Shown one piece after another: positions 1,371 to 64,000 of a stretch of DNA of 64,000 nucleotides; positions within the stretch are counted from its first letter, which is position 1; every line of letters begins with the position of its first letter. The stretch spans positions 1,541,001-1,605,000 of the forward strand of contig NZ_CANNEZ010000001.1 in the NCBI RefSeq assembly GCF_947503795.1, written 5' to 3'. The translations under genes were made by a program, and so were the position numbers. Under the pieces are notes generated by a model. The model was given only the letters and a program-made list of their open reading frames with translations, made no database searches and had not been told where the DNA came from. This stretch comes from an uncultured Jannaschia sp. (GTDB lineage: Bacteria; Pseudomonadota; Alphaproteobacteria; Rhodobacterales; Rhodobacteraceae).

Positions 1371-1733
1371 TCAGCGGTATCTGCCCATGAAGCGCTCGCT
1401 TCGCCCACAGATCGCCGCGGTGCCCCCGCCGACCGCGAGGCCGAGCCATTGCCATCCCCCGCCGCCCAACGGCACCAGCCCGGTGCCGTGGCCCAGCACT
1501 GGACACGTCATTGCCAGCAGATAGGGCCCGGTGTAGCGGCAATGGACACGCCCGCAGCGCCGGGCGTTGAGCAAGCAGGCCCCGCCCATCCAGACCAGCG
1601 CCAAAAGCCAGATCACCGTCTTGGGGCAATTGGGCAGCGGGATCGCCAGGAGCATGGCACCGAGGGGCAGCCACCACGCGATGAAAGAGCCGCTGGCCGA
1701 GCCAAGGAGATCGCGCGAAGACTTGTCACTCAT
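1371..1733 (-). CDS. Small Cys-rich membrane protein of the mer operon
   Basis: This 120-residue protein has three or four hydrophobic stretches and six cysteines (36, 53, 60, 65, 77, 109). A compact NARRCGRVHCRYTGP segment (residues 57-70) carries C60 and C65. It begins 3 bp after the merA stop on the same strand, so it belongs to the mer transcript. I do not know an assigned function. Membrane location plus several thiols suggests mercury handling or transport, which is inference. An overlapping frame (1339-1677) is hydrophilic and arginine-rich and is judged a shadow. Confidence 0.75.
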   Translation of the reverse strand: MSDKSSRDLLGSASGSFIAWWLPLGAMLLAIPLPNCPKTVIWLLALVWMGGACLLNARRCGRVHCRYTGPYLLAMTCPVLGHGTGLVPLGGGGWQWLGLAVGGGTAAICGRSERFMGRYR

Positions 1734-1736
1734 GGG

Positions 1737-3152
1737 TCACCCTGCGCAGCAACTAAGCGCGGCCACGTCCTTCTCGAAAGTTTGAGCGGCGAGCTTCAGG
1801 CCTTCGACCGTCGTGAGATAGGGCATGATCGTATCGCCCAACTCCTCGTAGGTGAGCCCCGCCTTCAGCGCCATCGCCGCCGTCTGGATGCTGTCTGCGC
1901 CCTCCGGGGCGAGGATCTGCGCGCCCAAGAGCCGTTTGCTGCCTGCTTCTGCCACCAGCTTGATCAGCCCGCGCTTGTCACGGGCGGCGAGCGCGCGCGG
2001 CACAGCGTCGAGCGGCAGAACCGAGGTCACGACCTCGTGCCCGACAGCCCGTGCCCGCGCTTCGCTCAGCCCCACACCCGCCACCTGCGGGTCGGAGAAG
2101 ACCACCCAGGGCATCGTGGCGTTGTCGTAGCTACGCGCCTCGTCCGCCACTGCATTCCGCGCGGCGAGTTTTGCGCCATAGGCCGCCATGTAGACGAATT
2201 GGTCTCGCCCGGTGACGTCGCCCGCGGCCCAGACCTTTGGGTTGTCGGTGCGCATATGCGCGTCGACGACGATCCCACCCCGCAAGTCGGTCTCGATCCC
2301 AGCAGCGCCGAGGTTCAGCCCGTCGCTGTTCGGCAGTCGTCCGGTGGCGAGCAGCAACCGCTCGGCGTCGAAGGTGTCTCCGACCGTGGTGGTCAGACGC
2401 ACGGTATCGCCGTCGCGGGTCACGCTCTCGTAGCCCGTGACCCGCGCCAGGCGGATGCCTTCCTTGGACAGATAGCCCTCCAGCGCTTGTGATATCTCTG
2501 GCTCCGCTTCCGGCAGCACGCCCCGGCGACTGATCAGCGTCACTTCGACACCCGCACGGGCGAAGAGCTGCACCAGTTCCACCCCGATATAGCCCGCACC
2601 GAGAACCAGCATCGAGGCTGGCAGTTCGGTCAGCTCCAGTGCCGAGGTGCTGTCGAGGACGTCGACCTCCTCGATGCCCGGGATTGTTGGCGCATGCGGG
2701 CGGGAGCCGGTCGCGATGACAATCTTCGTTGCTGAAAAGACCGCGCCGTCCACCATCAGGTGGCCGTCGTCGTCGAACCGGACGGCGCCCTCAATGTAGT
2801 CGATGTTCTCGTGCTGCGGCAAAACGTTGGCATACTTCGCCGCTCGTAACTCCTCCACCAGCGCTTGCTTCTGCGCCACCGTCGCGGCCCAATCGGTGAC
2901 GCGGCCCTCGGCCTCGATGCCGTCGAAGCGGCTCGCGCGGCGGGCATGATGCAAGCTTTCCACGGCGCGGATCAGGGCCTTCGAAGGCACACAGCCCACG
3001 TTGACGCATGTGCCGCCGATGGTCCCATTGCCGATCAGGGCCACCCGCGCCCCGGCTTCGGCGGCGGTGATCGCGGCCGAAAATCCCGCCGAGCCGGCGC
3101 CGATCACAGCAAGGTCATAGGCGCCGCTTTTGGGCGTGCAGCAATCTTTCAT
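1737..3152 (-). CDS. merA: Mercuric reductase MerA
   Basis: Cytosolic flavoenzyme of 471 residues that reduces Hg(II) to volatile Hg(0) with NADPH. It shows the FAD motif GAGSAG (near 18-23), the redox pair C49/C54 in GGTCVNVGCVPSK, an NAD(P) motif GAGYIG, AAGDVTG, and the vicinal C468/C469 near the C-terminus (SCCAG) that hand Hg(II) to the active site. The N-terminal HMA metal-binding domain of longer MerA proteins is absent; only a short MKDCC head remains. It follows merF by 10 bp, within an operon with merT, merP and merF. Family assignment is very secure. Confidence 0.98.
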   Translation of the reverse strand: MKDCCTPKSGAYDLAVIGAGSAGFSAAITAAEAGARVALIGNGTIGGTCVNVGCVPSKALIRAVESLHHARRASRFDGIEAEGRVTDWAATVAQKQALVEELRAAKYANVLPQHENIDYIEGAVRFDDDGHLMVDGAVFSATKIVIATGSRPHAPTIPGIEEVDVLDSTSALELTELPASMLVLGAGYIGVELVQLFARAGVEVTLISRRGVLPEAEPEISQALEGYLSKEGIRLARVTGYESVTRDGDTVRLTTTVGDTFDAERLLLATGRLPNSDGLNLGAAGIETDLRGGIVVDAHMRTDNPKVWAAGDVTGRDQFVYMAAYGAKLAARNAVADEARSYDNATMPWVVFSDPQVAGVGLSEARARAVGHEVVTSVLPLDAVPRALAARDKRGLIKLVAEAGSKRLLGAQILAPEGADSIQTAAMALKAGLTYEELGDTIMPYLTTVEGLKLAAQTFEKDVAALSCCAG

Positions 3153-3162
3153 GTCAGCCTCT

Positions 3163-3393
3163 TCAGTTGATGCGTTGGCGCCGCCAGAGCGCGTAGAGGG
3201 TGATGCCGATGAACACCGCGAGCGCTGGCAAAAGCACGAGGTCGAGCCAGCCCAGCACGGCCGACAGCCCGACCGCGCCCAGCAGGATCACGAGAACCGG
3301 GGTGAAGCAGCACAACGCCACGACGACAGTGCCGATCAGCCCGTATTTCAGAAGGCGGTCGTTCTTGCCCGAGGGTGTCTCGGGTTGGGTCAC
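3163..3393 (-). CDS. merF: Mercury transporter MerF
   Basis: Inner-membrane protein of 76 residues with two transmembrane helices. The vicinal pair C28/C29 in ALCCFTPVLVILLG is the MerF signature in helix 1. The second, C-terminal cysteine pair known from plasmid MerF is missing: the protein ends WRRQRIN. Its start overlaps the merP stop by 4 bp (ATGA at 3390-3393), indicating coupled translation. The expected role is moving Hg(II) from the periplasm or MerP to cytosolic MerA. Confidence 0.93.
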   Translation of the reverse strand: MTQPETPSGKNDRLLKYGLIGTVVVALCCFTPVLVILLGAVGLSAVLGWLDLVLLPALAVFIGITLYALWRRQRIN

Positions 3394-3686
3394 GATCCGC
3401 CCCCGGCAACGAGTGACGCCCCGTAGCCGACGCCGGTCACGGCAGCGACCAGAGCTTCGGGATCGGTTACGGCGTCGTCATATCGCAGCAGGTAAGTGCC
3501 ATCTTCGTCCTCGCCCTCGGTAAACTCGGCGATCTGCACGGTTTCCACTTTCTTCAGAGCGGCGGCGACGATGTAACTGCATGAGGGGCAGGTCAGCCCG
3601 GTAACATGCAGCCGGGTCTCGGCCTCGTCCGCCAGCGACATCGCAGGGGCCAGCATCAGAGCTGTGGCAAGAAGGGTTTGTTTCAT
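3390..3686 (-). CDS. merP: Periplasmic mercury-binding protein MerP
   Basis: This 98-residue protein has a signal peptide ending near residue 19 (ALMLAPAMSLA) and one HMA domain with the metal-binding motif GLTCPSC (C33, C36). MerP binds Hg(II) in the periplasm and passes it to MerT or MerF. It sits 13 bp after merT and overlaps merF by 4 bp. The domain is somewhat divergent and acid-rich in the middle (TEGEDEDG), but position and motif make the call firm. Confidence 0.93.
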   Translation of the reverse strand: MKQTLLATALMLAPAMSLADEAETRLHVTGLTCPSCSYIVAAALKKVETVQIAEFTEGEDEDGTYLLRYDDAVTDPEALVAAVTGVGYGASLVAGGGS

Positions 3687-3699
3687 CGGGGTCTCCGTA

Positions 3700-4095
3700 T
3701 CAGAAGGTCAGGATGCGCGGGGCGACATAGGGAAAGACCAAGGCCAGCAGCACGACGGCCAGTGCGCTCCAAAGAAGCGCCCGCATCACGCCCCGATCCA
3801 CTGGACGGGCGCAGGCGCCGGTGCCGCAGTTATCTGCGGGCACCGGGCGATAGGCTTTCCAGAAGCCATAGCCCAGAGCCACTGCCGCAAGGGAGAAGGT
3901 AACCCATTTATAGGCGTAAAGTGCCGTGAGCTGGCCGATGAAAACGCCGGTCACGCCGAGGCTGACAAGCACCAGCGGGAGGATGCAACAGGAGGTCATC
4001 GCCAGCGCGCCGAGCACCCCGGCACCGGTGGCGGCCCATCCCGACCTGTCCGGATGGTTTTGTGCCTGTCGCTCGGTCTCAGTCATCTCGCTCAT
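3700..4095 (-). CDS. merT: Mercury transport protein MerT
   Basis: Inner-membrane importer of Hg(II), 131 residues with three transmembrane helices. The pair C36/C37 lies in helix 1 (TSCCILPL) and a second pair C90/C95 in the cytoplasmic loop (NCGTGAC), as in known MerT. I chose the ATG at 4095 because the open frame upstream of it runs back through the mer operator and the -10 element (4128-4133), where translation cannot start from this promoter. It is the first gene of the merTPFA operon. Confidence 0.95.
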   Translation of the reverse strand: MSEMTETERQAQNHPDRSGWAATGAGVLGALAMTSCCILPLVLVSLGVTGVFIGQLTALYAYKWVTFSLAAVALGYGFWKAYRPVPADNCGTGACARPVDRGVMRALLWSALAVVLLALVFPYVAPRILTF

Positions 4096-4127
4096 CGCTT
4101 CGCCGTGGTTGTCGCTTGATGACAGGC

Positions 4128-4158
4128 AAGATAGGGTCTGTAGCAACTACAGGATCAA
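4128..4158 (-). promoter_or_regulatory. MerR-controlled promoter and operator of merTPFA
   Basis: On the minus strand a -35 element TTGATC (4158-4153) and a -10 element TATCTT (4133-4128) are separated by 19 bp. The spacer holds the perfect dyad CTGTAGTTGCTACAG (4152-4138). An overlong 19-bp spacer with a central dyad is the hallmark of MerR-activated promoters, where MerR-Hg(II) untwists the DNA. The merR start codon lies 12 bp beyond the -35 element on the other strand, so the same site probably also represses merR. Confidence 0.9.
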
Positions 4159-52791: not shown

Positions 52792-53226
52792 ATGCGCCTG
52801 ATCGCAAGCTATATCGTAGGCCTCGTCTTCGGGGTCGGCATCTCGATTTCGGGGATGGCGAACCCCGCGAAGGTGCTCAACTTCTTCGATATCGCCGGAA
52901 GCTGGGACCCCAGCCTTGCCTTCGTCATGGGCGGCGCGCTGTTGGTGACCTTCGTCGGCTACAGATGGGTTCTACGCGCGGACGGACCGCTTCTGGACAC
53001 GCGGTTCCTGATCCCGACCCGCTCGGATCTCGACCCGCGCCTGATCGGCGGCGCAGCCCTCTTCGGCGTCGGATGGGGCATCGCGGGCTTCTGTCCCGGC
53101 GGCGCGCTGCCAGCGCTCGGCACCGGGACGACGGACGTGTTCATCTTCGTCGCCGCCGTCATCGCGGGCATCTGGATCGCCCGTAATCTGGACCGCCTGA
53201 CCCGAACACCCACACCCCATACCTGA
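52792..53226 (+). CDS. YeeE/YedE-like DUF6691 protein (second half, PmpB-like)
   Basis: This 144-residue membrane protein has [20 protein letters not shown] and [19 protein letters not shown], the complementary half of the split YeeE channel. It lies 3 bp after the first half and 9 bp before the persulfide dioxygenase-like gene. Confidence 0.93.
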
Positions 53227-53235
53227 GGAGAGGAT

Positions 53236-54120
53236 ATGATGACCTATCCCATCGACATGACGACCCGCCCCAAGGTCGACGGCTTCTTCGACGAGGCCAC
53301 CAACACGATCAGCTACATTATTCAGGACCCGGCCAGCGACCACTGCGCCATCATCGATAGCGTGATGGACATCGACTACGCCGCCGGGCGCATCACCTAC
53401 GACCACGCCGACAAGCTGATCGAGGAGGTGCGCCGCCGCGGCCTGACGCTGGACTGGATCATTGAGACCCATGTCCATGCCGACCACCTGTCGGCCGCGC
53501 CCTACATCCAGGAGAAACTGGGCGGGAAGATCGGCATCGGCGCTGAGATCGTCACCGTTCAGGACACGTTCGGAAAGGTGTTCAACGAGGGCACCGAGTT
53601 CCAGCGCGACGGCTCGCAATTCGACGCCCTGTTCTCCGACGGTGACATCTATGAAATCGGCAGCATGACCGCATTCGCGATCCACACGCCGGGCCATACG
53701 CCCGCCTGCATGACCCATGTGATCGGTGACGCCGCCTTTGTGGGCGATACGCTCTTCATGCCCGACGGCGGCTCCGCCCGTGCCGACTTTCCGGGCGGTG
53801 ATGCGGGCGTGCTCTATGACAGCATCCAGAAGGTGCTGGCCCTGCCGGACGCGATGCGCCTCTTCATGTGCCACGACTATGGACCGAATGGGCGCGACAT
53901 CGCTTGGGAGACCACGGTCGCGGAGGAAAAGGCGCATAACATCCATGTCGGCGGCGGCACGACCCGCGCCGCCTTCGTCAAGATGCGGGAGGAGCGCGAC
54001 GCGACGCTTGCCGTTCCGAAGCTCATCCTGCCGTCCCTGCAGGTGAACATGCGGGCGGGCGAAGTGCCCACCGACGCAGAGGGCAATCCGGTGCTGAAGG
54101 TGCCGGTCAACGGGATCTGA
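53236..54120 (+). CDS. MBL-fold persulfide dioxygenase-like protein (Blh type)
   Basis: This 294-residue metallo-beta-lactamase-fold protein has the metal-binding THVHADHLSAAP (H-x-H-x-D-H), HTPGHTPACMTHVIGD, FVGDTLF and MCHDYGPNGRD. ETHE1/Blh-type enzymes oxidise glutathione persulfide to sulfite. It starts behind GAGGAGAGG. The adjacent SQR supplies persulfide, and the SulP gene downstream could move the oxidised product. Confidence 0.93.
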   Translation: MMTYPIDMTTRPKVDGFFDEATNTISYIIQDPASDHCAIIDSVMDIDYAAGRITYDHADKLIEEVRRRGLTLDWIIETHVHADHLSAAPYIQEKLGGKIGIGAEIVTVQDTFGKVFNEGTEFQRDGSQFDALFSDGDIYEIGSMTAFAIHTPGHTPACMTHVIGDAAFVGDTLFMPDGGSARADFPGGDAGVLYDSIQKVLALPDAMRLFMCHDYGPNGRDIAWETTVAEEKAHNIHVGGGTTRAAFVKMREERDATLAVPKLILPSLQVNMRAGEVPTDAEGNPVLKVPVNGI

Positions 54121-54131
54121 GGGGCGGGATC

Positions 54132-55805
54132 ATGGATATTCGCACACTCACGCCCCGACTATCTGTCGGACCGCAGATCGACCCCGGCGATCTGAAGACC
54201 CTTGCCGCGATGGGCTACCGTGCCGTCATCTGCAATCGGCCCGATGGCGAGGCCGCGGACCAGCCGACCTTCGAGGAGATCGCCGCCGCCGCGCGTGCGG
54301 AGGGGCTCGAGGCGCGGCACGTGCCGATCGTCGCCGGTCGGGTCGAAGATGCCGACGTGGTGGCGTTCGAAGCCGCCCTGACGGAGCTTCCGGGACCGGT
54401 GCTCGCATATTGCCGCACGGGCACCCGGTCGACCACGCTCTGGTCGCTCAGCCGGGCGGGTGTACTCAAGCTGCCCGACATCCTCGCGATCACGAAGGCG
54501 GCCGGATACGACATGGGGGGCGTGGTGCGCCGGATCGCGAATGGCGGGCAGACCCCGACCGACCGGTCCGATGCGCGGTTCGACATCGCGATCGTCGGTG
54601 GCGGGGCTGCGGGCATCGCGGTGGCCGCCAGCCTTCGGAAACGCCAGCCCGATCTCGACGTCGCCATCATCGACCCGGCCGACACGCATTACTACCAGCC
54701 CGGTTGGACGATGGTCGGCGGCGGCATCTTCGAAGCGGCCGAGACCGTTCGAACGATGGGCTCCATCATTCCCAAGGGCGTGCACTGGATCAAGGCGGCC
54801 GTGGCCGCCTTCGAGCCGGAGGCGGATGCCGTCATTCTCGATGGCTGCCGGGTCCTGCGCTACAAGCATCTCATCGTCTGCCCCGGCCTCAAGCTCGACT
54901 GGCATGCCGTGGACGGTCTGGTCGAGACGCTCGGGCGGAACGGCGTCACCTCGAACTATCGCTACGACCTGGCCCCTTACACGTGGGACCTTGTGCAGGG
55001 CCTCAAATCGGGCCGCGCGATCTTCACGCAGCCGCCCATGCCGATCAAATGCGCGGGCGCGCCGCAAAAGGCGATGTACCTCTCGGCCGATGCCTGGCGC
55101 CGGCGTGGGGTTCTGGGGGACATCGAAATCCACTTCGCCAATGCCGGCGGCGTTCTCTTCGGGATCGCGGATTACGTGCCCGCCTTGATGGAATATGTCG
55201 AACGCTACGGTGTGGCGCTGGATTTCCACCACAACCTCGTCGCCGTCGACGGACCGAACCGGATCGCCACCTTCGACGTGACACCCCCCGTTGCCGAGAC
55301 GAGGCGCGTCAAGATGGCGTTCGATATGCTTCACGTATGCCCGCCCCAGGCCGCGCCCGATTTCATCCGCGTCTCGCCCCTTGCCGATGCGGCCGGATGG
55401 GTCGATGTCGATCAGGCGAGCCTCAGGCACCGGAGTTGGGACAACATCTGGTCCCTTGGCGACGTGATGAATGCCCCCAACGCCAAGACCGCCGCCGCCG
55501 CACGGATGCAGGCGCCGATCGTCGCCGCCAATATCGACGCCGCCATGCGCGGTCGTGGTCCGGTGGCGCGGTACAACGGCTACGGTTCCTGCCCTCTGAC
55601 CGTGGAGCGAGGGAAGATCGTGCTGGCCGAGTTCGGATATGGCGGCACTCTCCTGCCCAGTTTCCCCGAGGCTCTGATCGACGGCACCCGGCCCAGCCGT
55701 GCGGCGTGGCTCCTGAAGGAGAAGATCCTTCCGCCGGTCTACTGGCGCGGCATGCTGAAGGGGCGCGAATGGCTCGTGCGGCCCGAGCCTGTCACGGTCG
55801 ACTGA
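54132..55805 (+). CDS. DUF442 phosphatase-like domain fused to sulfide:quinone oxidoreductase
   Basis: This 557-residue fusion has an N-terminal DUF442/Blh domain (residues 1-140) with the C-x5-R loop YCRTGTRST (C94). The C-terminal SQR-like flavoprotein (from about 150) has VGGGAAGIAVAASL, HYYQPGWTMVGGGIF and MPIKCAGAPQKAMYL, the latter typical of SQR, plus further cysteines in VCPGLKL and HVCPPQAA. It should oxidise sulfide at the membrane, passing electrons to quinone and sulfur to a thiol acceptor. It starts 12 bp after the dioxygenase stop. Confidence 0.92.
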   Translation: MDIRTLTPRLSVGPQIDPGDLKTLAAMGYRAVICNRPDGEAADQPTFEEIAAAARAEGLEARHVPIVAGRVEDADVVAFEAALTELPGPVLAYCRTGTRSTTLWSLSRAGVLKLPDILAITKAAGYDMGGVVRRIANGGQTPTDRSDARFDIAIVGGGAAGIAVAASLRKRQPDLDVAIIDPADTHYYQPGWTMVGGGIFEAAETVRTMGSIIPKGVHWIKAAVAAFEPEADAVILDGCRVLRYKHLIVCPGLKLDWHAVDGLVETLGRNGVTSNYRYDLAPYTWDLVQGLKSGRAIFTQPPMPIKCAGAPQKAMYLSADAWRRRGVLGDIEIHFANAGGVLFGIADYVPALMEYVERYGVALDFHHNLVAVDGPNRIATFDVTPPVAETRRVKMAFDMLHVCPPQAAPDFIRVSPLADAAGWVDVDQASLRHRSWDNIWSLGDVMNAPNAKTAAAARMQAPIVAANIDAAMRGRGPVARYNGYGSCPLTVERGKIVLAEFGYGGTLLPSFPEALIDGTRPSRAAWLLKEKILPPVYWRGMLKGREWLVRPEPVTVD

Positions 55806-55809
55806 TCAC

Positions 55810-57519
55810 ATGGGCTTTGCGCGATACCTTCCGGTCCTCGACTGGGGTCGGCGTTACGATCGTCGCGATCTGGGCGGAGACGCGCTCGCAGCCGTGATCG
55901 TCACGATCATGCTGATCCCCCAATCGCTGGCCTACGCGCTGCTGGCCGGTCTGCCGCCCGAGGCAGGCCTCTACGCCTCGATCGTGCCGATCCTGCTCTA
56001 CGCCATGTTCGGCACATCCCGCGCCTTGGCCGTCGGCCCCGTCGCGGTCGTATCGCTTATGACGGCGGCCGCGCTGGGCGATGTGGTGGCGCAAGGGACC
56101 GCAGGTTACGCGACGGCCGCGCTGACGTTGGCCGGGCTCTCGGGCGTGATGCTGCTGGCCTTCGGCCTGCTCCGGCTGGGTGCGATCGCCAACTACCTGT
56201 CGCACCCGGTCATCTCGGGCTTCATCACGGCGAGCGGGCTCCTGATCGCGGCCAGCCAGTTGCGGCATGTGATGGGCATCGAGGCCCATGGCCACACGCT
56301 CCCGGTGCTGCTCGGCTCGCTGGCCGAGAATGTCCGTGACACGAACGCCGCCACGTTCGCGCTCGGGCTCGGGACGACGGCGTTCCTGTTCTGGGTCCGC
56401 TCGGGTCTCGCGCCGCTGCTGCGCCGGCTCGGCCTGACCTCCGGGGCCGCCGGCACCCTCGCCAAGATCGGGCCCGTCGCCGCCATCGCCGCCACCACTT
56501 GGGTCGTCTGGCAGTTCGACCTGCAGGCGATGGGCGTGGCCGTCGTCGGAGAGGTGCCCCGCGCCCTGCCACCCCTCACCCGGCCCGACCTTTCGCTCGA
56601 CCTCGTCCGGCAGCTTGCCCTGCCCGCCGCGCTCATCTCAATCATCGGGTTCGTCGAGTCGATCTCGGTCGCCCAGACGCTCGCCGCCAAGCGCCGCCAG
56701 CGCATCGACCCGGACCAGGAACTGATCGGTCTCGGGGCGGCCAATATCGGCGCGTCGCTGACCGGGGGCTTTCCGGTGACGGGTGGCTTTTCGCGGTCGG
56801 TCGTCAATTTCGACGCCGGCGCCCGCACCCCCGCCGCCGGGGCCCTCACCGCGGCCGGACTGGCGCTCGCGGCGGTGACGCTGACGCCGCTCATCCATTA
56901 CCTGCCGAAGGCGACGCTCGCGGCGACGATCATCGTCGCCGTCCTCAGCCTCGTGGATCTGGATCTCCTTCGCCGTGCCTGGATCTATGCAAAGGCCGAT
57001 TTCGCCGCCGTCGCCACGACCGTCACGCTCACCCTTCTGCTGGGTGTGGAAGTGGGCGTATCGGCGGGTGTCGCCCTCTCGATCCTGCTGCACCTCCACC
57101 GCGCCGCGCGACCCCATATCGCCGAAGTCGGGCGCGTCCCGGGCACCGAGCACTTCCGCAACATCCTCCGCCATGAGGTCCTGACCGACCCACGGATCGT
57201 GAGCTTGCGCGTGGATGAAAGCCTCTGGTTCGCGAATGCGCGCTACCTCGAGGACCATATCCAGGCCCGCATCGCCGACGACCCGACGATCCGGCATGTC
57301 GTCCTGCAATGCGCGGCGATCAACGAGATCGACCTCAGCGCTCTGGAATCCCTCGAAGCGATCAACGCTCGATTGGACGAGATGGGGGTGGCGCTGCATC
57401 TCTCCGAAGTGAAAGGCCCGGTCATGGACCGTCTGCGCCGCGGCGATTTCCTGTCGCATCTGTCGGGACGCATCTTCCTGTCGCAGCACGATGCGGCATC
57501 GGAACTGGCGACGGGCTGA
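55810..57519 (+). CDS. SulP family anion permease with STAS domain
   Basis: A 569-residue protein with about 11-12 transmembrane helices (MLIPQSLAYALLAGLPPEAG, the SulP signature; GAANIGASLTGGFPVTGGFS) and a C-terminal STAS domain (about residues 440-555, HVVLQCAAINEIDLSALESL). It probably transports sulfate or sulfite or another oxyanion. It begins 4 bp after the SQR stop and ends the operon. Confidence 0.94.
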   Translation: MGFARYLPVLDWGRRYDRRDLGGDALAAVIVTIMLIPQSLAYALLAGLPPEAGLYASIVPILLYAMFGTSRALAVGPVAVVSLMTAAALGDVVAQGTAGYATAALTLAGLSGVMLLAFGLLRLGAIANYLSHPVISGFITASGLLIAASQLRHVMGIEAHGHTLPVLLGSLAENVRDTNAATFALGLGTTAFLFWVRSGLAPLLRRLGLTSGAAGTLAKIGPVAAIAATTWVVWQFDLQAMGVAVVGEVPRALPPLTRPDLSLDLVRQLALPAALISIIGFVESISVAQTLAAKRRQRIDPDQELIGLGAANIGASLTGGFPVTGGFSRSVVNFDAGARTPAAGALTAAGLALAAVTLTPLIHYLPKATLAATIIVAVLSLVDLDLLRRAWIYAKADFAAVATTVTLTLLLGVEVGVSAGVALSILLHLHRAARPHIAEVGRVPGTEHFRNILRHEVLTDPRIVSLRVDESLWFANARYLEDHIQARIADDPTIRHVVLQCAAINEIDLSALESLEAINARLDEMGVALHLSEVKGPVMDRLRRGDFLSHLSGRIFLSQHDAASELATG

Positions 57520-58084: not shown

Positions 58085-59641
58085 GTGTTCGAATGGCTCC
58101 TCCGCTGCGTTCTCGTCACGTTTCTGGTCGTGACCGGCACAGCCGTCCTCGGCCAGGATGCCGCCGAAGCCCCAACGGATTTCTCTGATTTCGATCACAG
58201 TGCCACCGGGTTCGACCTGACCGGGGCCCATCGCGGCGCGACCTGCGAAAGCTGCCATATCGACGGCAATCTCGTCGATACGCCGCAAACCTGCGTCGGC
58301 TGCCACAACAACCAGATGGTGGCCGGAAAGCCCGCCGCGCACCCGCCCGCATCCGACAGTTGCGCCCAATGCCATACGGCGGAGAACTGGCGACCTTTCG
58401 CCTTCGATCACAGCCTCGCGGATCGGGACTGCGTCGCGTGCCACAACGGCGCGAATGCCAGCGGCAAGTCCGCCGATCACCTCGAGACCGCCGATACCTG
58501 CGACAGCTGTCACATCACGACCACCTGGACGGATGTGCGCTTCGATCACGCCGCCGTCTCGGGCGCTTGCGCCAGTTGCCACGATGGCGGCGCCGCCATC
58601 GGCAAGCCGGGCAACCACATCCCCAGCAGCAATACCTGCGACGACTGCCACGTCACGACCACATGGACCGACGTGCGGTTCGACCATGCCGCCGTCTCGG
58701 GGGCCTGTGTCACCTGCCACAACGGCAACACCGCCACGGGTAAGCCAGGCAACCATGTCCCGAGCAGCAATAGCTGCGACGATTGCCACGTAACCACCAC
58801 ATGGACGGATGTCCGCTTCGACCACGCGGCGGTCACCGGGGCCTGTGTCGCCTGCCACAACGGCGGCACGGCCACCGGCAAGCCCGGTAACCATATCCCC
58901 AGCAGCAACTCTTGCGACGACTGTCACATCACGACGAACTGGACCGACGTGCGGTTCGACCACGCCTCCGTCACCGGGGCCTGCGTCAGTTGCCACAACG
59001 GCAGTACCGCGACCGGCAAACCCGGCAATCACATCCCCAGCAGCAATAGCTGCGACGATTGCCACGTCACGACCACCTGGACCGATGTGCGCTTCGATCA
59101 TGCCTCGGTCACCGGGGCTTGCGTCACATGCCACAACGGCAGCACCGCGACCGGCAAGCCGGGCAACCATATCCCGAGCAGCAACTCCTGCGACGACTGC
59201 CACAGCACGACGACCTGGACCGATGTGCGCTTCGATCACGCCTCTGTCACCGGCGCCTGCGTCACCTGTCACAACGGCAGCACCGCGACGGGCAAGCCGG
59301 GCAACCATATCCCCAGCAGCAATACCTGCGACGACTGCCATGTCCCAAGCACCTGGACCGACGTGCGCTTCGACCATGCCGCCGTCACCGGGGCCTGCGT
59401 GACCTGTCACAACGGCAGCACGGCCACCGGCAAACCCGGCAACCATATCCCGAGCAGCAACACCTGCGACGATTGCCACCGGCCCACGTCCTGGACCTCG
59501 GTCTCGGTCGATCACAGCTCGGTGGTCGGGGCGTGCGTCACCTGTCACAATGGCGGCTTCGCCGAAGGCAAGCCCAGCGATCATCCCCGGTCCTCGAACG
59601 CGTGCGACGACTGCCACAACACGTCGGACTGGGATGATTGA
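58085..59641 (+). CDS. Repetitive multihaem cytochrome c, 21 CxxCH motifs
   Basis: A 518-residue exported protein with signal peptide (LLRCVLVTFLVVTGTAVLG) and 21 CxxCH haem-binding motifs. From residue 68 to the end it is ten 46-residue units, the first two divergent and the last incomplete. A typical full unit has GACVTCHNG, TGKPGNHIPSS, CDDCH and TTWTDVRFDH, that is, two CxxCH plus two extra His (in GNH and FDH) that could be distal ligands, so bis-His haems are likely. The start is GTG 58085. Its stop overlaps the next gene by 8 bp. The role is probably periplasmic or cell-surface electron transfer; the family has no firm name here. Confidence 0.93.
   Translation: MFEWLLRCVLVTFLVVTGTAVLGQDAAEAPTDFSDFDHSATGFDLTGAHRGATCESCHIDGNLVDTPQTCVGCHNNQMVAGKPAAHPPASDSCAQCHTAENWRPFAFDHSLADRDCVACHNGANASGKSADHLETADTCDSCHITTTWTDVRFDHAAVSGACASCHDGGAAIGKPGNHIPSSNTCDDCHVTTTWTDVRFDHAAVSGACVTCHNGNTATGKPGNHVPSSNSCDDCHVTTTWTDVRFDHAAVTGACVACHNGGTATGKPGNHIPSSNSCDDCHITTNWTDVRFDHASVTGACVSCHNGSTATGKPGNHIPSSNSCDDCHVTTTWTDVRFDHASVTGACVTCHNGSTATGKPGNHIPSSNSCDDCHSTTTWTDVRFDHASVTGACVTCHNGSTATGKPGNHIPSSNTCDDCHVPSTWTDVRFDHAAVTGACVTCHNGSTATGKPGNHIPSSNTCDDCHRPTSWTSVSVDHSSVVGACVTCHNGGFAEGKPSDHPRSSNACDDCHNTSDWDD
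58286..59638 (+). repeat. 138-bp tandem repeat array encoding haem units
   Basis: Ten in-frame 138-bp units (46 codons) with starts at about 58286, 58424, 58562, 58700, 58838, 58976, 59114, 59252, 59390 and 59528. Units 4-8 are nearly identical at protein level and very similar in DNA, consistent with recent duplication or gene conversion. The first two units are older and divergent, and the tenth is truncated. Confidence 0.9.
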
Positions 59642-61961
59642 CGTCACCCCAAATCGGACCGCGGGACGGATGCGTAGGACTGGCGCGCTGGCCGCCCTCT
59701 GTGCTGCGTTGGCCTTAACGCCGGCGGCCAAAGCACAGTCCCTGCTGGTCGATGCCGAGGCGAGCTTCGATGCCGCCCGCGTGTGCCCGACCCTCGTCGT
59801 GCGCTTCGCTTCGCCGCTGGACCTGCTCGTGCAATCCGGCGGCCAAGGCGCGTCCCGGATCGATCTGATCCTGCGCCCCGACGGGGATGATGCCACCGAG
59901 ATCCTCGAATTCGACGCACCGGTCACCCTGCCTGCACCGTCGTCGCCCGCATTGGGGGCCACGCGCATCGCGCTGGAGCAATCCGGGGCCGATCTCGTCC
60001 TCAACATCACCTTCGCGCGGCCGGTCGTCACCGAGGCGACGATGGCGCCCGATGGTCGGACGGTCTCGGTCGCGGTCGCCGAGGCCGGGGGTGCCAGCGC
60101 CTGCCTGAACTCCCTGACCGGGGGCGGGCCGCAGGTGACGTCCGACCCGCCTGCCCCGGACGCCCCGATCAATGACACCGACGACGACCTGGCCGGGATC
60201 GAGGCCGATTTCGTCGAGGCCCGCGCGGCCATCACCGCGCAGAACTACAATCGCGCGATCCAGTTGCTGACCCGCATCCTGTCCGCGCCGGAGAATGAGC
60301 GCAGCGCCGAGGCGCAGGAGCTGTTGGGCGTCGTCCGGGAGCGCAACGACCAGTTCGCGCAGGCCCGGGCCGAATACGAGATCTACCTGGAGCGCTATCC
60401 CGACGGCGACGGCGCGACCCGCGTCCGCCAGCGCCTGACGGCCCTGCTGACCGCGCAGGGCGCGCCGCCCGCACCCCTGCGCACCGCGACGGACGGCACC
60501 CCGGCGCGGCCCAACGAAGAGGTGGATTCCACGGACGCCCCCCCTGCCCTCGATCAGGCGGCGGCGCGGCCGCGTCCGCTCACACCGGCCCGCGACACCC
60601 GCCGCCCCATCGCCGATCCCGACGAGGCGGAAGAGGAGAGCCTTCCGAAGCTCGAATATTCTGGCAGCTTCACCAGCCGGTACTTCTTCCGGCAGGAGAC
60701 GGCACGCATCTCGGATTTCGATACGGCCCGCCGGTCGGTGGACGACTTCGTGCTTCAGAACTCGCTCGTGAATGGTGTGAACTTCCGCGGCGTCTACGAG
60801 ACCGCGGACTACATCCTGTCATGGCGCGTGGACGGCGCGCTCGAGTTCGCGTTCGACGACGAGGAGGAGAATGTCCGCTTCTCGCGCCTCTACGTGGACT
60901 ACGATCCGAAGCACTCCGATCTTTCCTATCGGTTCGGGCGCCATCTCGTCCGGTCGGGCGGGGTGTTCGACCGATTCGACGGCCTGACCGCAAGCTGGCG
61001 CCGCGACGAGGCGTTCAGCGCCCATTTCCAGATCGGCTCGCCGGTAGACAGCGTCCGCGACCCCCTGTTCGAGTTCGACCGCCTGACCTACGGCATCAGC
61101 CTGGAGTTCGAGGAGGTCTTCTCGCACACCGACCTCAGCATCTACGCCTTCGAGCAGCGCGCCGGTTCGGTGGTGGATCGCCGCAATATCGGGTTCGAGC
61201 TGGAATACGAGGACGACGTCTTCTTCGCGAGCGCCGCCGTGGACTACGACATCTCCCTCGACAAGCTGAACTACGCGCGGATCTCCGCGACGCGCCGGTT
61301 CGAGGACCGCTCCACGCTGACCTTCAGTCTCGACTACGTCCAGTCGCCCACGCTCGCGCTGACCAATGCCGAACAGGGCCAGGCGGGCCAGACGCTGGAC
61401 CAGTTGCTGGAGACCTTCACCCTGGCCGAGGTCCGGCAATTCGCGCTCGACCGCACGACCGCGTCGCGATCTGCCACGCTGTCGTATTTCCGACCCTGGA
61501 ACGACACGTGGCTGTTCAACGCGGATGCCACGGTGTTCCAGACAGAAGGCAACCCCGCCTCGGGGGGCGTGCCCGCAATCGCCGCGCCGGGAACGGATGT
61601 CTACGCGTCGATTGGCGTCTTCGGGTCGGGTGTCTTCTCGGAATCCGACGTACTCAGCGCGTCCCTGCGCTATGCGGACACCTCGTCTGCCACGCTCGGG
61701 CTGATCGACGCGTCCTACCGCTTCAGGCCGACAGACCGGCTGCGCGTCCGGCCGCGCCTGCGGCTAGGCCACCGGGACCTGAAGGCGAGCGGCGGGACGG
61801 AGATCTTCGCGGTCCCGTCGGTGACGATCGACTACGAGGTCAGGGACAGCACCCAGTTGGAGCTGGAGGTCGGCGGACGCCTGTCCCGGACGCGGACGCC
61901 CACGACACTCGACAACCGCACCGAGACCTATGCCTTCTTGGGGATCCGGCAGGAGTTCTGA
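59634..61961 (+). CDS. TPR plus outer-membrane beta-barrel protein partnered with the cytochrome
   Basis: About 775 residues. A signal peptide (GALAALCAALALTPAAKAQ) is followed by a beta-rich N-terminal domain (to about 165), a short TPR-like helical segment (NYNRAIQLLTRILSAPENER, FAQARAEYEIYLERYPDGDG, about 205-270), a Pro/Asp-rich linker, then a region of about 430 residues with alternating amphipathic strands (YSGSFTSRYFF, LYVDYDPKHSDLSYRFGRHL) ending in RQEF with a C-terminal Phe. This pattern fits an outer-membrane barrel with a periplasmic arm. ATG 59634 overlaps the cytochrome stop; ATG 59670 is also possible. Coupling to a multihaem cytochrome recalls porin-cytochrome conduits, but I see no MtrB-like motif. 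Confidence 0.85.
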   Translation: MIDVTPNRTAGRMRRTGALAALCAALALTPAAKAQSLLVDAEASFDAARVCPTLVVRFASPLDLLVQSGGQGASRIDLILRPDGDDATEILEFDAPVTLPAPSSPALGATRIALEQSGADLVLNITFARPVVTEATMAPDGRTVSVAVAEAGGASACLNSLTGGGPQVTSDPPAPDAPINDTDDDLAGIEADFVEARAAITAQNYNRAIQLLTRILSAPENERSAEAQELLGVVRERNDQFAQARAEYEIYLERYPDGDGATRVRQRLTALLTAQGAPPAPLRTATDGTPARPNEEVDSTDAPPALDQAAARPRPLTPARDTRRPIADPDEAEEESLPKLEYSGSFTSRYFFRQETARISDFDTARRSVDDFVLQNSLVNGVNFRGVYETADYILSWRVDGALEFAFDDEEENVRFSRLYVDYDPKHSDLSYRFGRHLVRSGGVFDRFDGLTASWRRDEAFSAHFQIGSPVDSVRDPLFEFDRLTYGISLEFEEVFSHTDLSIYAFEQRAGSVVDRRNIGFELEYEDDVFFASAAVDYDISLDKLNYARISATRRFEDRSTLTFSLDYVQSPTLALTNAEQGQAGQTLDQLLETFTLAEVRQFALDRTTASRSATLSYFRPWNDTWLFNADATVFQTEGNPASGGVPAIAAPGTDVYASIGVFGSGVFSESDVLSASLRYADTSSATLGLIDASYRFRPTDRLRVRPRLRLGHRDLKASGGTEIFAVPSVTIDYEVRDSTQLELEVGGRLSRTRTPTTLDNRTETYAFLGIRQEF

Positions 61962-61968
61962 GGCGAGC

Positions 61969-63447
61969 CTAGTCCAGCAGCGCCACGACCACCGGATTTC
62001 CCGCCGCAAGGGCAAGATCGCGGGCGCGGTGACGGTCCTGGTTGCGCAGCCCCTTGTCGGCCCCCGCTTCGATCAGCAATCCGACGACCTCGCGCGCGTC
62101 GGCCTGCGCGGCCAGCATCAGCGCCGAGTTGCGCTTGGCATTGCGCAGGTCGATCTCTGCGCCCGCGCCGATCAGGCTCTGGACGGCATGGGAATTGCCT
62201 TGCCGGGCGGCGATCATCAGGGCCGTGTTGCCCGTCTCGGTGGCGGCGTTCACATCCGCCCCGGCCTTCAGAAGCAGGGACATCATCCCGGTCTGCCCGA
62301 AGCGCAGCGCTGCGTGCAGCGCCGTCTCGCCCTCGTGATCCGCATGGTCGATCGCCACGCCGGTTTCGATCAGGAACGATGCCGCGGGCCTGTTGCCCGC
62401 CGCCGCAGCGTGCCACAGCGCCCCGCGCCCGTCCGCGTCGATCAGATCGAGCGGCAATCCCCGTTGCAGCAGCATGTCCAGGATCTCCGGCCCGCCGTTC
62501 TGCGCCGCCGTCGTCAGGAGGTTCATCCGCAGTTGGGGATCTTCGGCCGGGAAGTCGTGCTTGAGCAGGAGAAGGGCGACCCGCGTCTGCCCGGCCCCGA
62601 GCGCATGGCCCAGCGGGCGCGTGCCGTCGGCATCGGCCAGATAGCTCCGCGCGCCGTGCTGCAGCAGGTGCCAGACCACCGTGTAGTGCCCCGCCTGCGA
62701 TGCGAGGGCCAGGGCCGTCCGACCCTCCGCGTCCTGGAAATTGAGATCGGCACCGGCCTCGACCAGCGCCATGGTCGCCTTGATCTGACCCGTCTCGGCC
62801 GCGTGCATCAGCGCGGTGCGCCCCTGCTTGTCGGTGCCGTCGATCACTGCGCCGTCGTCCAGCAGCGCTTCGGTCACCTCGTCTTCGCCGCGCCGTGCCG
62901 CTTCGATCAGAAGGGTCCAGCCCAGATTATTCGCGATCTCGGATACCTCGCGTTCGGTCTCTTCGACGCTCTCCTCCACCGCCGCATGGTCGGCCTCCTT
63001 CTCGGCGACCAGCGCGCGGTCCAGCTTCGACAGCAACCGTGCGGCCAGCGCGTGACCCTCAGCGGCGGCGGTGGCGACCCACGTCCGACCCGCCAAGGCA
63101 TCCTCCTCGGTGCCGCGTCCATCCAGCAAGAGGTTGCCGAGGCTGTATTGCGCATCGAGATGGCCCGCTTCAGCAGCTTGTTTCGTCAGGTCGAAGGCCA
63201 TCCGCTCGTCTTGGCGCACGCCGCGCCCGTCGCGGTAGAGCGTGGCGAGAATGAACGAGGCTTCGGCGTGCCCCTCCGCCGACAGGTCCGCCAGGGTCTC
63301 GGCCGCCTCGGTATAGTTGCGTTGCCGGACCGCCGTCTCGGCCGCCTGCATCCGCAGCGCGTCGCCGGGACGCTGTTGCACGTTGGCGGCGGCAGGCGCG
63401 GCCAGCGCGACGAAGGCGAGGAGAATCGTTGTTCTATGCAGTGCCAT
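61969..63447 (-). CDS. Exported Sel1/ankyrin-repeat protein
   Basis: About 492 residues. A signal peptide (TTILLAFVALAAPAAA) is followed by Sel1-like repeats (AEASFILATLYRDGRGV, LDAQYSLGNLLLDGRG, about 60-140), then about eight ankyrin repeats (GRTALMHAAETGQ, GETALHAALRFGQ, GNTALMIAARQGN, about 185-480). It is probably a periplasmic protein-binding scaffold. ATG 63447 is chosen because it gives the signal peptide; it overlaps the upstream oxidoreductase stop by 14 bp. Its 3' end lies 7 bp from the convergent barrel gene. Confidence 0.88.
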   Translation of the reverse strand: MALHRTTILLAFVALAAPAAANVQQRPGDALRMQAAETAVRQRNYTEAAETLADLSAEGHAEASFILATLYRDGRGVRQDERMAFDLTKQAAEAGHLDAQYSLGNLLLDGRGTEEDALAGRTWVATAAAEGHALAARLLSKLDRALVAEKEADHAAVEESVEETEREVSEIANNLGWTLLIEAARRGEDEVTEALLDDGAVIDGTDKQGRTALMHAAETGQIKATMALVEAGADLNFQDAEGRTALALASQAGHYTVVWHLLQHGARSYLADADGTRPLGHALGAGQTRVALLLLKHDFPAEDPQLRMNLLTTAAQNGGPEILDMLLQRGLPLDLIDADGRGALWHAAAAGNRPAASFLIETGVAIDHADHEGETALHAALRFGQTGMMSLLLKAGADVNAATETGNTALMIAARQGNSHAVQSLIGAGAEIDLRNAKRNSALMLAAQADAREVVGLLIEAGADKGLRNQDRHRARDLALAAGNPVVVALLD

Positions 63448-64000
63448 GTTTTGTCTCGACCGTGATTCCGATGGATTTGAGAAACGCGGTCGGCAGGATG
63501 CCCCCCGCGCAGACGATGACGGCATCGTTGGGCAGACGCGTCATATCGCCCGCCTGTTCGATTTCGACATGCGCCGCGTCGATCTTCTTGACGTTGGAGC
63601 CGAGGATGACGTTGAGGCTGCCATCCGCCTCGGCCGCCTCGAGCTTCTTGCGGTTCTTCGGCTTCACGCGTGAGAACGCGGCACTTCGATAGGACAGCGT
63701 CACATCGCTCTGCGGTAGCTCGGCGATGCTGGTCGCGGCCTCGATGGCGCTGTCGCCGCCGCCCACCACCAGCACCGACTGCCCCTGATACTGTTCGGGG
63801 TCGGTCAAGCGATAGACGACCTTGCTCTGCTCCTCGCCCTCCACGCCGAGCTTCCGGGGCGTCCCGCGCCGACCGATCGTCAGAAGCACGGCACGCCCGC
63901 GATGTGTGCCTGCGGTCGTGGTGACCTCGAAGCCGTCGCCATCGGGTTCAATCGCCGTGACGCGCTCCTCGAAATTGATCTGAAGACCCGTGTCGGCGAC
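63434..64000 (-). CDS. Thioredoxin-reductase-like NAD(P)/FAD oxidoreductase, N-terminus off right edge
   Basis: 188 C-terminal residues are visible; the frame is open to the right edge. It shows AVLLTIGRRGTPRKLGV, then the NAD(P)H-binding VLVVGGGDSAIEAATSIAEL, a SYRSAAFSRVKPKNRKK segment and VIVCAGGILPTAFLKSIGI. This is the two-dinucleotide-domain (TrxB/YpdA-like) class, without a visible CxxC in this part. It is co-transcribed with the ankyrin gene (14-bp overlap). It might feed electrons into the cytochrome system; this is inference. Confidence 0.88.
   Translation of the reverse strand, partial: VADTGLQINFEERVTAIEPDGDGFEVTTTAGTHRGRAVLLTIGRRGTPRKLGVEGEEQSKVVYRLTDPEQYQGQSVLVVGGGDSAIEAATSIAELPQSDVTLSYRSAAFSRVKPKNRKKLEAAEADGSLNVILGSNVKKIDAAHVEIEQAGDMTRLPNDAVIVCAGGILPTAFLKSIGITVETKHGTA

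Follow-up and report, generated by a model that had tools for sequence, protein, structure and literature searches.

The window, a stretch of 64,000 nucleotides from an uncultured Jannaschia sp., carries close to its end the gene of a 21-haem repeat cytochrome c, overlapped by the gene of a porin-like protein, and further genes of interest lie past the window end. Their positions were converted from the coordinates of the extended locus (window position = L010 + 60000).

58085..59641, + strand: 21-haem repeat cytochrome c gene (518 aa, GTG start)
58244..58360, + strand: N-terminal cap with haems 1-2 at 16-residue spacing, of a type seen in relatives
58361..59602, + strand: haems 3-20 in nine di-haem repeats of 46 residues, with two additional His in every repeat
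59603..59641, + strand: last CxxCH and short end of the repeat cytochrome
59634..61961, + strand: porin-like protein (775 aa, TPR and beta-barrel), overlapping the cytochrome gene by 8 bp
59757..60083, + strand: beta domain of the porin, presumably periplasmic (model residues 42-150)
60180..60455, + strand: TPR arm of the porin, five helices (model residues 183-274)
60474..60647, + strand: low-confidence linker of the porin (residues 281-338)
60648..61958, + strand: 22 barrel strands of the porin (residues 339-775)
61969..63447, - strand: Sel1/ankyrin-repeat protein, hydrophobic at its N-terminus and only sometimes a neighbour (25 of 80 loci)
63434..64000, - strand: 3' part of the gene of a FAD/4Fe-4S NAD(P)-type oxidoreductase, continuing past the window (L010 3434 to ~4750)
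Outside the window, - strand: CcmI, CcmH, CcmG and CcmF genes, past the FAD/4Fe-4S gene
69279-70211, outside the window, + strand: five-helix inner-membrane protein (310 aa)
70212-71588 (L010 10212-11588), outside the window, + strand: 18-haem cytochrome (18 CxxCH)

The repeat cytochrome begins with a hydrophobic stretch (residues 5-23), and its 518 residues hold 21 CxxCH motifs, about 25 residues per haem, which confirmed the count of the sequence-only reading. Among stop-to-stop frames of more than 60 codons in the whole window, it is the sole one with more than one CxxCH. The first interval between motifs is 16 residues and the remaining ones are 23 residues in 19 of 19 cases; since 21 of the 42 His lie outside CxxCH, the proposed design of two haems and two extra His per 46 residues also held. 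With one such His for every haem, all haems could have bis-His ligation. Many relatives have a longer C-terminal cap, which is missing from this protein as from those of two Limimaricola loci (L032 and L034), Limimaricola being the nearest relatives found for the locus, with a barrel identity of 65% over the best segment. No lipobox was seen in it, and 2 of 52 relatives had lipobox-like stretches. An AlphaFold2 model of the cytochrome, built on a 17-row alignment, was discarded (pLDDT 44.5, pTM 0.17); published AlphaFold models of cytochromes from the clusters introduced below (PCC3) are reported to be long and mostly linear (PMC10734462).

A possible start of the porin gene is the ATG at 59634 (ATGATTGA), 8 bp inside the cytochrome gene, which ends at 59641, in agreement with the overlap proposed earlier. 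Its AlphaFold2 model (56-row alignment) has a mean pLDDT of 84, with barrel residues mostly above 90, and consists of a beta domain, a TPR arm and a 22-strand barrel with a helical insertion after strand 13 (residues 576-606). The model thus shows the barrel and TPR arm that had been anticipated, and the gene, ending at 61961, encodes the anticipated C-terminal Phe. TonB-dependent receptors have barrels of 22 strands, a size that the modelled barrel shares, and the 11 Pfam families that it matched at E<=1 included no plug domain of these receptors.

The outline of a barrel plus a multihaem cytochrome is also that of MtrCAB, MtoAB and PioAB, which would work alike, and the pair could in principle be a divergent relative of MtrAB/PioAB. 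The DmsE decahaem model did score the repeat cytochrome, at 79.2 bits, although this falls under its cut-off of 192.2 bits. Moreover, MtrB_PioB was not among the 11 Pfam families of the porin at E<=1 nor found anywhere in the genome at E<=0.001, and the partners in the known systems are decahaem proteins, compared with 21 and 18 haems here. MtrB has 26 barrel strands, against 22 in our model. MtrB structures were not among the best 50 matches listed per fold search, which is no evidence of absence; in the 56-member scans, the first 25 of 37 Pfam and the first 25 of 27 NCBIfam families were listed. On the DmsE score, the missing MtrB_PioB match and the strand number, such a relationship is highly improbable. 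The earlier statement that neither protein shows the signatures of MtrAB or Pcc stands for the barrel and needs correction for the cytochrome, which scores 66.8 bits against the Pfam MtrC/MtrF II/IV domain, whose cut-off is 30, and also passes the cut-off of Cytochrome_C7. We read these matches as probably generic CxxCH similarity, because plainly unrelated families pass their cut-offs too.

A much closer counterpart is the PCC3 porin-cytochrome c cluster, which He et al. reported in 2017 (PMC5566968) and which PMC10734462, PMC12442390 and PMC13386937 also treat. PCC3 consists of a porin, an outer and an inner multihaem cytochrome and an inner-membrane protein with five TM helices (PMC5566968), and all four published components were found for the window system. 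Here the porin, whose membrane location is predicted, lies beside a multihaem cytochrome gene; the outer cytochrome is a haem-rich repeat protein with ~25 residues per haem, within the published 22-39 (PMC5566968); and the periplasmic cytochrome has 18 haems, compared with a published median of 21, that of the outer cytochrome being 34 (PMC5566968). The PCC3 membrane protein has ~300 aa, SGXXG in TM4 and WX3HX13H in TM3 and TM5 (PMC5566968). In support of the assignment, our protein is 310 aa long, has five hydrophobic stretches and carries each of these motifs: W110-H114-H128 in TM3, S151-G-L-I-G155 in TM4 and W285-H289-H303 in TM5. Three differences were seen. PCC3 genes are largely conserved in organisation within one cluster (PMC5566968), whereas here the outer and inner pairs are ~7 kb apart, split by a block with the FAD/4Fe-4S oxidoreductase, the ankyrin protein and the ccm genes, an order shared by three other loci (L032, L034 and L035). 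As many as 42 transmembrane regions are given by He et al. for the porin, compared with the 22-strand size of our barrel, and the outer cytochrome here lacks the C-terminal cap that many relatives have. Since the components and motifs found are those published for PCC3, the system is of a known kind. Thus, the distinct electron route that the sequence-only reading had suggested survives as a conduit separate in sequence from MtrAB/PioAB, and not as a new route.

Relatives support this picture. A multihaem cytochrome frame stands directly before the barrel in 72 of 80 barrel relatives from many lineages, so that the two genes do co-occur; six of the eight loci without such a frame are contigs that start inside the barrel frame. 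The outer cytochrome frames (n=52) have 7-93 haems, with a median of 31 close to the published 34, and an odd number in 46 of 52. The second cytochrome has 21 haems 32 times, 18 ten times, 24 four times, 27 twice and other values three times, and so mostly 21 or 18 against the published 21. These counts suggest that the outer cytochrome grows by di-haem units and the inner one by tri-haem units. By the script's rule, the second cytochrome lies directly 3' of the membrane-protein gene in 41 of 46 loci; in the remaining five, a 21- or 24-haem frame is present whose start lies deeper within the membrane-protein frame. The set also occurs in Erythrobacter sp. SD-21 (L056), with a barrel 34% identical to ours; the main text of He et al. 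names an Erythrobacter sp. without strain, and the word 'Rhodobacter' is absent from it (PMC5566968).

The cytochrome could instead be a periplasmic electron store, a capacitor, with the barrel a channel that merely shares its operon. The protein is secreted, haem-dense and without a lipobox, and storage by PCC3 cytochromes has been proposed by others (PMC10734462). The adjacency of cytochrome and barrel in so many lineages argues against this, as do the up to 93 haems per frame, which would seem far beyond the periplasm's need, and we regard it as unlikely.

The spread of the barrel was sampled at several ranks, matches restricted to the TPR part being set apart before genomes with the barrel were counted. 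A single barrel as query gave no relatives in a first scan of genome contigs. The barrel matched in 4 of 292 genomes of the order sample, three of them around the TPR part only, and in 5 of 337 of the class sample (G000 and G527 over the barrel, three around the TPR part only); in the phylum sample, G658 matched at the TPR part only (8.6e-6). A plasmid origin of the pair was dropped: no plasmid searched matched the barrel, and one gave a distant match to the cytochrome (Emticicia, 26%). A link to the upstream sulfur genes was also rejected. Three of their proteins (SulP, the BLH-phosphatase/FAD protein and the metallo-beta-lactamase) were the tblastn queries, the DUF6691 protein not being among them, and these genes were left out because none matched in the 80 relatives' loci at E<=1e-6. 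At the cut-offs used, 14 of 20 genomes of the genus had the SulP gene and 4 of 20 the downstream LysR-type gene. In the other genomes with both (G967 and G970) they are far apart or on different contigs, and therefore no empty insertion site was demonstrable within the genus from these flanks. Note that the simple gene picker, which served solely for locating neighbours, had not picked the cytochrome gene.

The FAD/4Fe-4S gene is a companion of PCC3 that we did not find in print. Of 398 genomes, the same six had strong matches to it, to the full-length porin and to the membrane protein, and in all six its gene is no more than 10 kb away from that of the porin. The membrane-protein profile matched 31 further genomes, weakly and mostly over part of its length (best E 1e-15 to 1.3e-8). 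Two readings of the inner end were weighed. In the model of He et al., the five-helix cytochrome b exchanges electrons with the quinone pool, as argued from its two HX13H motifs (PMC5566968); the FAD/4Fe-4S protein would then be a helper, for example a reductant for cytochrome maturation or a redox sensor. In support of a helper, its gene adjoins the ccm genes in our genome, and its flavin half is closest to YpdA and thioredoxin reductase-like enzymes. However, it stays with PCC3 where CcmF is not nearby: within the locus DNA covered, 38 of the 46 loci with the membrane protein have the FAD/4Fe-4S gene and 14 have CcmF. In six members examined, CxxC pairs occur solely in the first cluster motif, which speaks against a helper as well. 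We hold this quinone-linked arrangement to be plausible, at somewhat less than even odds.

The other reading draws on the membrane domain of ferric reductases and NADPH oxidases, which likewise has two HX13H motifs on TM3 and TM5 (PMC5566968); a possible flavin partner is likewise encoded near our membrane protein. Unlike in those enzymes, the flavin protein here is separate, YpdA-like and with 4Fe-4S motifs, and no Pfam family matched the membrane protein at E<=0.001. We tentatively propose, with the chances leaning against it, that PCC3 is an enzyme-plus-wire linked to NAD(P)H or ferredoxin and not to quinones: a split NADPH-oxidase-like unit (the FAD/4Fe-4S protein plus the two-haem-b membrane protein) would feed a periplasmic strut of 18-27 haems and then an outer wire that leads out through the 22-strand barrel and whose length (7 to 93 haems) would depend on how many di-haem modules were gained or lost.

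Our main conclusion, to which we give a probability of about 0.78, is that the pair makes up the outer half of a PCC3-type cluster and, together with the inner half ~7 kb downstream and past the window end, forms a trans-envelope electron conduit. Against this weigh the missing lipobox of the outer cytochrome, the split of the cluster in this genome and the ES-1 data given below. Passage of electrons towards or away from the cell surface is deduced from sequence, here as in the PCC3 literature, and we found no demonstrated function for any PCC3 in the papers cited. In this conduit, the five-helix protein would take electrons through the inner membrane on two haems b, held by its four conserved His, and a possible role of the FAD/4Fe-4S protein is to link this membrane haem to cytoplasmic NAD(P)H or ferredoxin. 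The 18-haem cytochrome, presumably built of tri-haem units, would bridge the periplasm; the barrel would be the outer-membrane gate, its TPR arm facing the periplasm; and the length-variable di-haem repeat cytochrome would be a wire into or beyond the barrel. It would take the place of the PCC3 'extracellular MHC', whose surface exposure is a prediction in print too. The same outline of periplasmic cytochrome, barrel and outer cytochrome is described for the OetABI conduit of syntrophic sulfate reducers (PMC10553843); that description sets OetABI apart, its outer cytochrome being a lipoprotein, unlike ours.

Electrons could flow either way, outwards as disposal of reductant or inwards as uptake from reduced surfaces or partners. 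Several genome papers list PCC3 as a possible iron oxidase, which contrasts with S. lithotrophicus ES-1, where expression of both PCC3 clusters is reduced on Fe(II) (PMC8788666). For the outer cytochrome Slit_1448, all columns of the proteome table read 0 (PMC12016527). Our host has reaction-centre genes, and no RuBisCO was detected in its genome; a role in redox balance or extra energy would be more likely here than one in autotrophy. The FAD/4Fe-4S component, found in the same genomes, offers a concrete candidate for the inner end, and whether that end is NAD(P)H or ferredoxin as opposed to quinone would be a way to settle the direction of the conduit. With their modular haem counts, the outer proteins would form a naturally occurring range of putative wires that differ stepwise in length.

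The locus around the cytochrome-porin pair is a member of the porin-cytochrome c cluster type PCC3 with a split gene order, and we filed it as such because all PCC3 components (porin, outer repeat cytochrome, inner/periplasmic cytochrome and five-helix inner-membrane protein) were found there. The electron route proposed in the sequence-only reading is therefore not a new one, as its components match a cluster already described (He et al. 2017, PMC5566968). The 21 CxxCH motifs, the 8-bp overlap and the terminal Phe noted in that reading were all borne out by frame analysis. The genes are as follows (L010 is the DNA running past the window end; window position = L010 + 60000):

58085-59641 (+), repeat cytochrome gene; 518 residues, 21 CxxCH, hydrophobic N-terminus
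59634-61961 (+), porin-like gene; 775 residues, C-terminal Phe, 8-bp overlap with the cytochrome gene
L010 (-), ankyrin/Sel1 gene, FAD/4Fe-4S oxidoreductase gene (63437 onwards, L010 3437-4750), CcmI and CcmF (both Ccm genes by Pfam)
L010, between CcmI and CcmF (-), CcmH and CcmG, identified by eye
L010, past the ccm genes (+), 310-residue five-helix protein, then 18-haem cytochrome

This gene order is repeated in the relatives' loci L032, L034 (Limimaricola) and L035 (labelled Amylibacter). The five-helix protein carries the motifs W110-H114-H128, S151-G-L-I-G155 and W285-H289-H303, whose positions are each kept in at least 22 of 25 sequences. In the window cytochrome, matched by Cytochrome_C7 and related Pfam models, the first interval between CxxCH motifs is 16 residues and the other 19 are 23, with exactly 21 His outside the motifs. 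Its sequence has no lipobox, and lipobox-like stretches occur in 2 of 52 relatives. The TPR and autotransporter-barrel Pfam matches of the porin-like protein were all below the cut-off. The barrel has 22 strands in a structure model of the window porin, the one member modelled, and in 56 aligned members the length of the barrel part fits about that number, whereas He et al. give PCC3 porins up to 42 transmembrane regions (PMC5566968). Note that the surface exposure and electron transfer of PCC3 are predictions in He et al. too (PMC5566968). In its passage on PCC3 cytochromes, another report describes AlphaFold models as long and mostly linear (PMC10734462).

Directly 5' of the pair lies a sulfur-related run (52792-57519, +) encoding a DUF6691 protein, a metallo-beta-lactamase (persulfide dioxygenase-like, judged by context), a BLH-phosphatase/FAD protein and a SulP permease; tblastn gave no match to the last three in the loci of the best 80 porin relatives. 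Elsewhere in the window, the stretch 1371-4146 (-) resembles, on visual inspection, a set of mercury-resistance genes, with MerA-, MerP- and MerT-like frames.

Relatives were searched for with a two-row alignment of the window porin and a distant homologue from genome G527 (33% identity), where a homologous repeat cytochrome likewise lies ahead of the barrel gene. This revealed at least 117 porin relatives in GTDB genomes, of which the best 80 were kept. A pair was counted when a frame of 3 or more CxxCH, on the strand of the barrel, either overlapped the barrel frame or ended no more than about 550 bases ahead of it. By this rule the pair is present in 72 of these 80 loci and thus conserved. 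Of the remaining eight loci, six lie on contigs that start within the barrel frame itself; L079 extends 622 bases upstream of the barrel, and L091 has an adjoining 11-haem frame on the opposite strand. The tblastn tallies, lower bounds because many loci are short, were at least 47 of the 80 for the membrane protein, 42 for the FAD/4Fe-4S protein, 25 for the ankyrin protein and 17 for CcmF. Labels among the best 80 include Rhodobacteraceae, Hyphomonadaceae, Erythrobacter, Woeseiaceae and other Gammaproteobacteria, as well as Nitrospinaceae, Nitrospirae and Deltaproteobacteria (MAGs, by record label only); the closest porin relatives among the matches listed are Limimaricola (65% best-segment identity). 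The porin is rare across samples of single genomes: weak TPR-only matches set apart, it occurs in 1 of 292 genomes of the order (G000, the window's own genome) and 2 of 337 of the class (G000 and G527). Within the genus, the membrane protein was found in 1 of 20 genomes, G000 itself.

Outer-cytochrome haems were counted in the 52 of 72 upstream frames clear of the start of the available DNA. These contain 7 to 93 CxxCH (median 31), although the lowest counts may stem from broken genes or misassembly, and the 46-residue unit is plain in their sequences. Counts are odd in 46 of 52 (binomial 1e-8, relatedness ignored), as expected if an odd haem set is extended by di-haem units. Many relatives carry a C-terminal cap with YTVSELRDCxGSCH, absent from the window cytochrome and two Limimaricola loci. 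The largest frame (L037 3000-9932, 2311 codons), from a Pseudorhodobacter MAG as assembled, has 93 CxxCH, compared to the 85 haems that were the largest known to He et al. in 2017 (PMC5566968). In L094 (7496-15179) the barrel gene lies between two repeat cytochrome frames, with 23 CxxCH upstream and 47 downstream; in L038 (6188-10007) two overlapping frames (16 and 33 CxxCH), either two genes or a frameshift, lie upstream of the barrel. A second cytochrome frame of at least 12 haems was present in 48 of the best 80 loci, with 21 (32 times), 18 (10), 24 (4) or 27 (2) haems and three other values once each. Its 16/18/33-type spacing repeats every three haems in the sequences inspected, with irregular stretches in L094.

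We then compared porin, membrane-protein and FAD/4Fe-4S searches over 398 phylum genomes, taken as one sample because all three agreed in their numbers of genomes, good genomes and genera. The porin profile matched seven, G658 in the TPR part only, leaving six (G000, G749, G656, G837, G935 and G937). The membrane protein (E<=1e-70) was found in the same six, with weak, mostly partial matches in 31 others, and the FAD/4Fe-4S protein (E<=1e-80) in these six and none besides at that cut-off. Its gene lies on the porin's contig, at most 10 kb away, in all six; two of them, G656 and G937, carry the membrane protein on a different contig. The chance of five of 397 genomes coinciding (G000 left out) is about 1e-11, by hand and ignoring relatedness; the five represent four families. 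The protein was also present in 38 of 46 survey loci, and some of the other eight may lack it through missing DNA. Together, this sample and survey suggest the FAD/4Fe-4S protein as a possible fifth PCC3 component.

Its flavin half is nearest YpdA, thioredoxin reductase and ferredoxin-NADP reductase, with conserved GxGxxG-type and GGGDSA nucleotide motifs. CxxCxxCxxxC occurs in 24 of 26 members and the second cluster motif, CxxHxxCxxxC, possibly a His-ligated or 3Fe cluster, in all 26; a hydrophobic stretch precedes the clusters in 22 (KD >=1.6 over 19 residues; 1.2-1.5 in the other four). The words flavin, ferredoxin and FAD are absent from the main text of He et al. (PMC5566968), and in searches of the open-access journal literature we found no publication on such a flavin partner of PCC3.

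Building on what was seen directly (gene content, conservation, motifs and the barrel model), we propose that electrons would enter from NAD(P)H or ferredoxin and pass through FAD and the 4Fe-4S cluster to two haems b of the membrane protein. From there, the 18-haem cytochrome would serve as a strut to the di-haem repeat cytochrome, a wire to the outside; the whole chain may instead run backwards. For the membrane motif, He et al. draw a parallel with ferric reductase, NADPH oxidase and cytochrome bc1, and they favour quinone (PMC5566968). An arrangement like that of NADPH oxidase would be in keeping with a flavin protein that is separate and linked to the same genomes.

Published PCC3 expression, in two reports, is mixed: in S. 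lithotrophicus ES-1 expression of both clusters falls on Fe(II) (PMC8788666), while strain CL21 expresses both copies above the mean with or without iron oxidation, and one copy's membrane-protein gene goes up when iron is oxidised (PMC12442390). The host genome has two Photo_RC reaction-centre genes (G000:C3:338492-340169) and no match to RuBisCO or MtrB_PioB. This gene content makes autotrophic iron oxidation by the host unlikely, and points to anoxygenic photoheterotrophy as its likely lifestyle.
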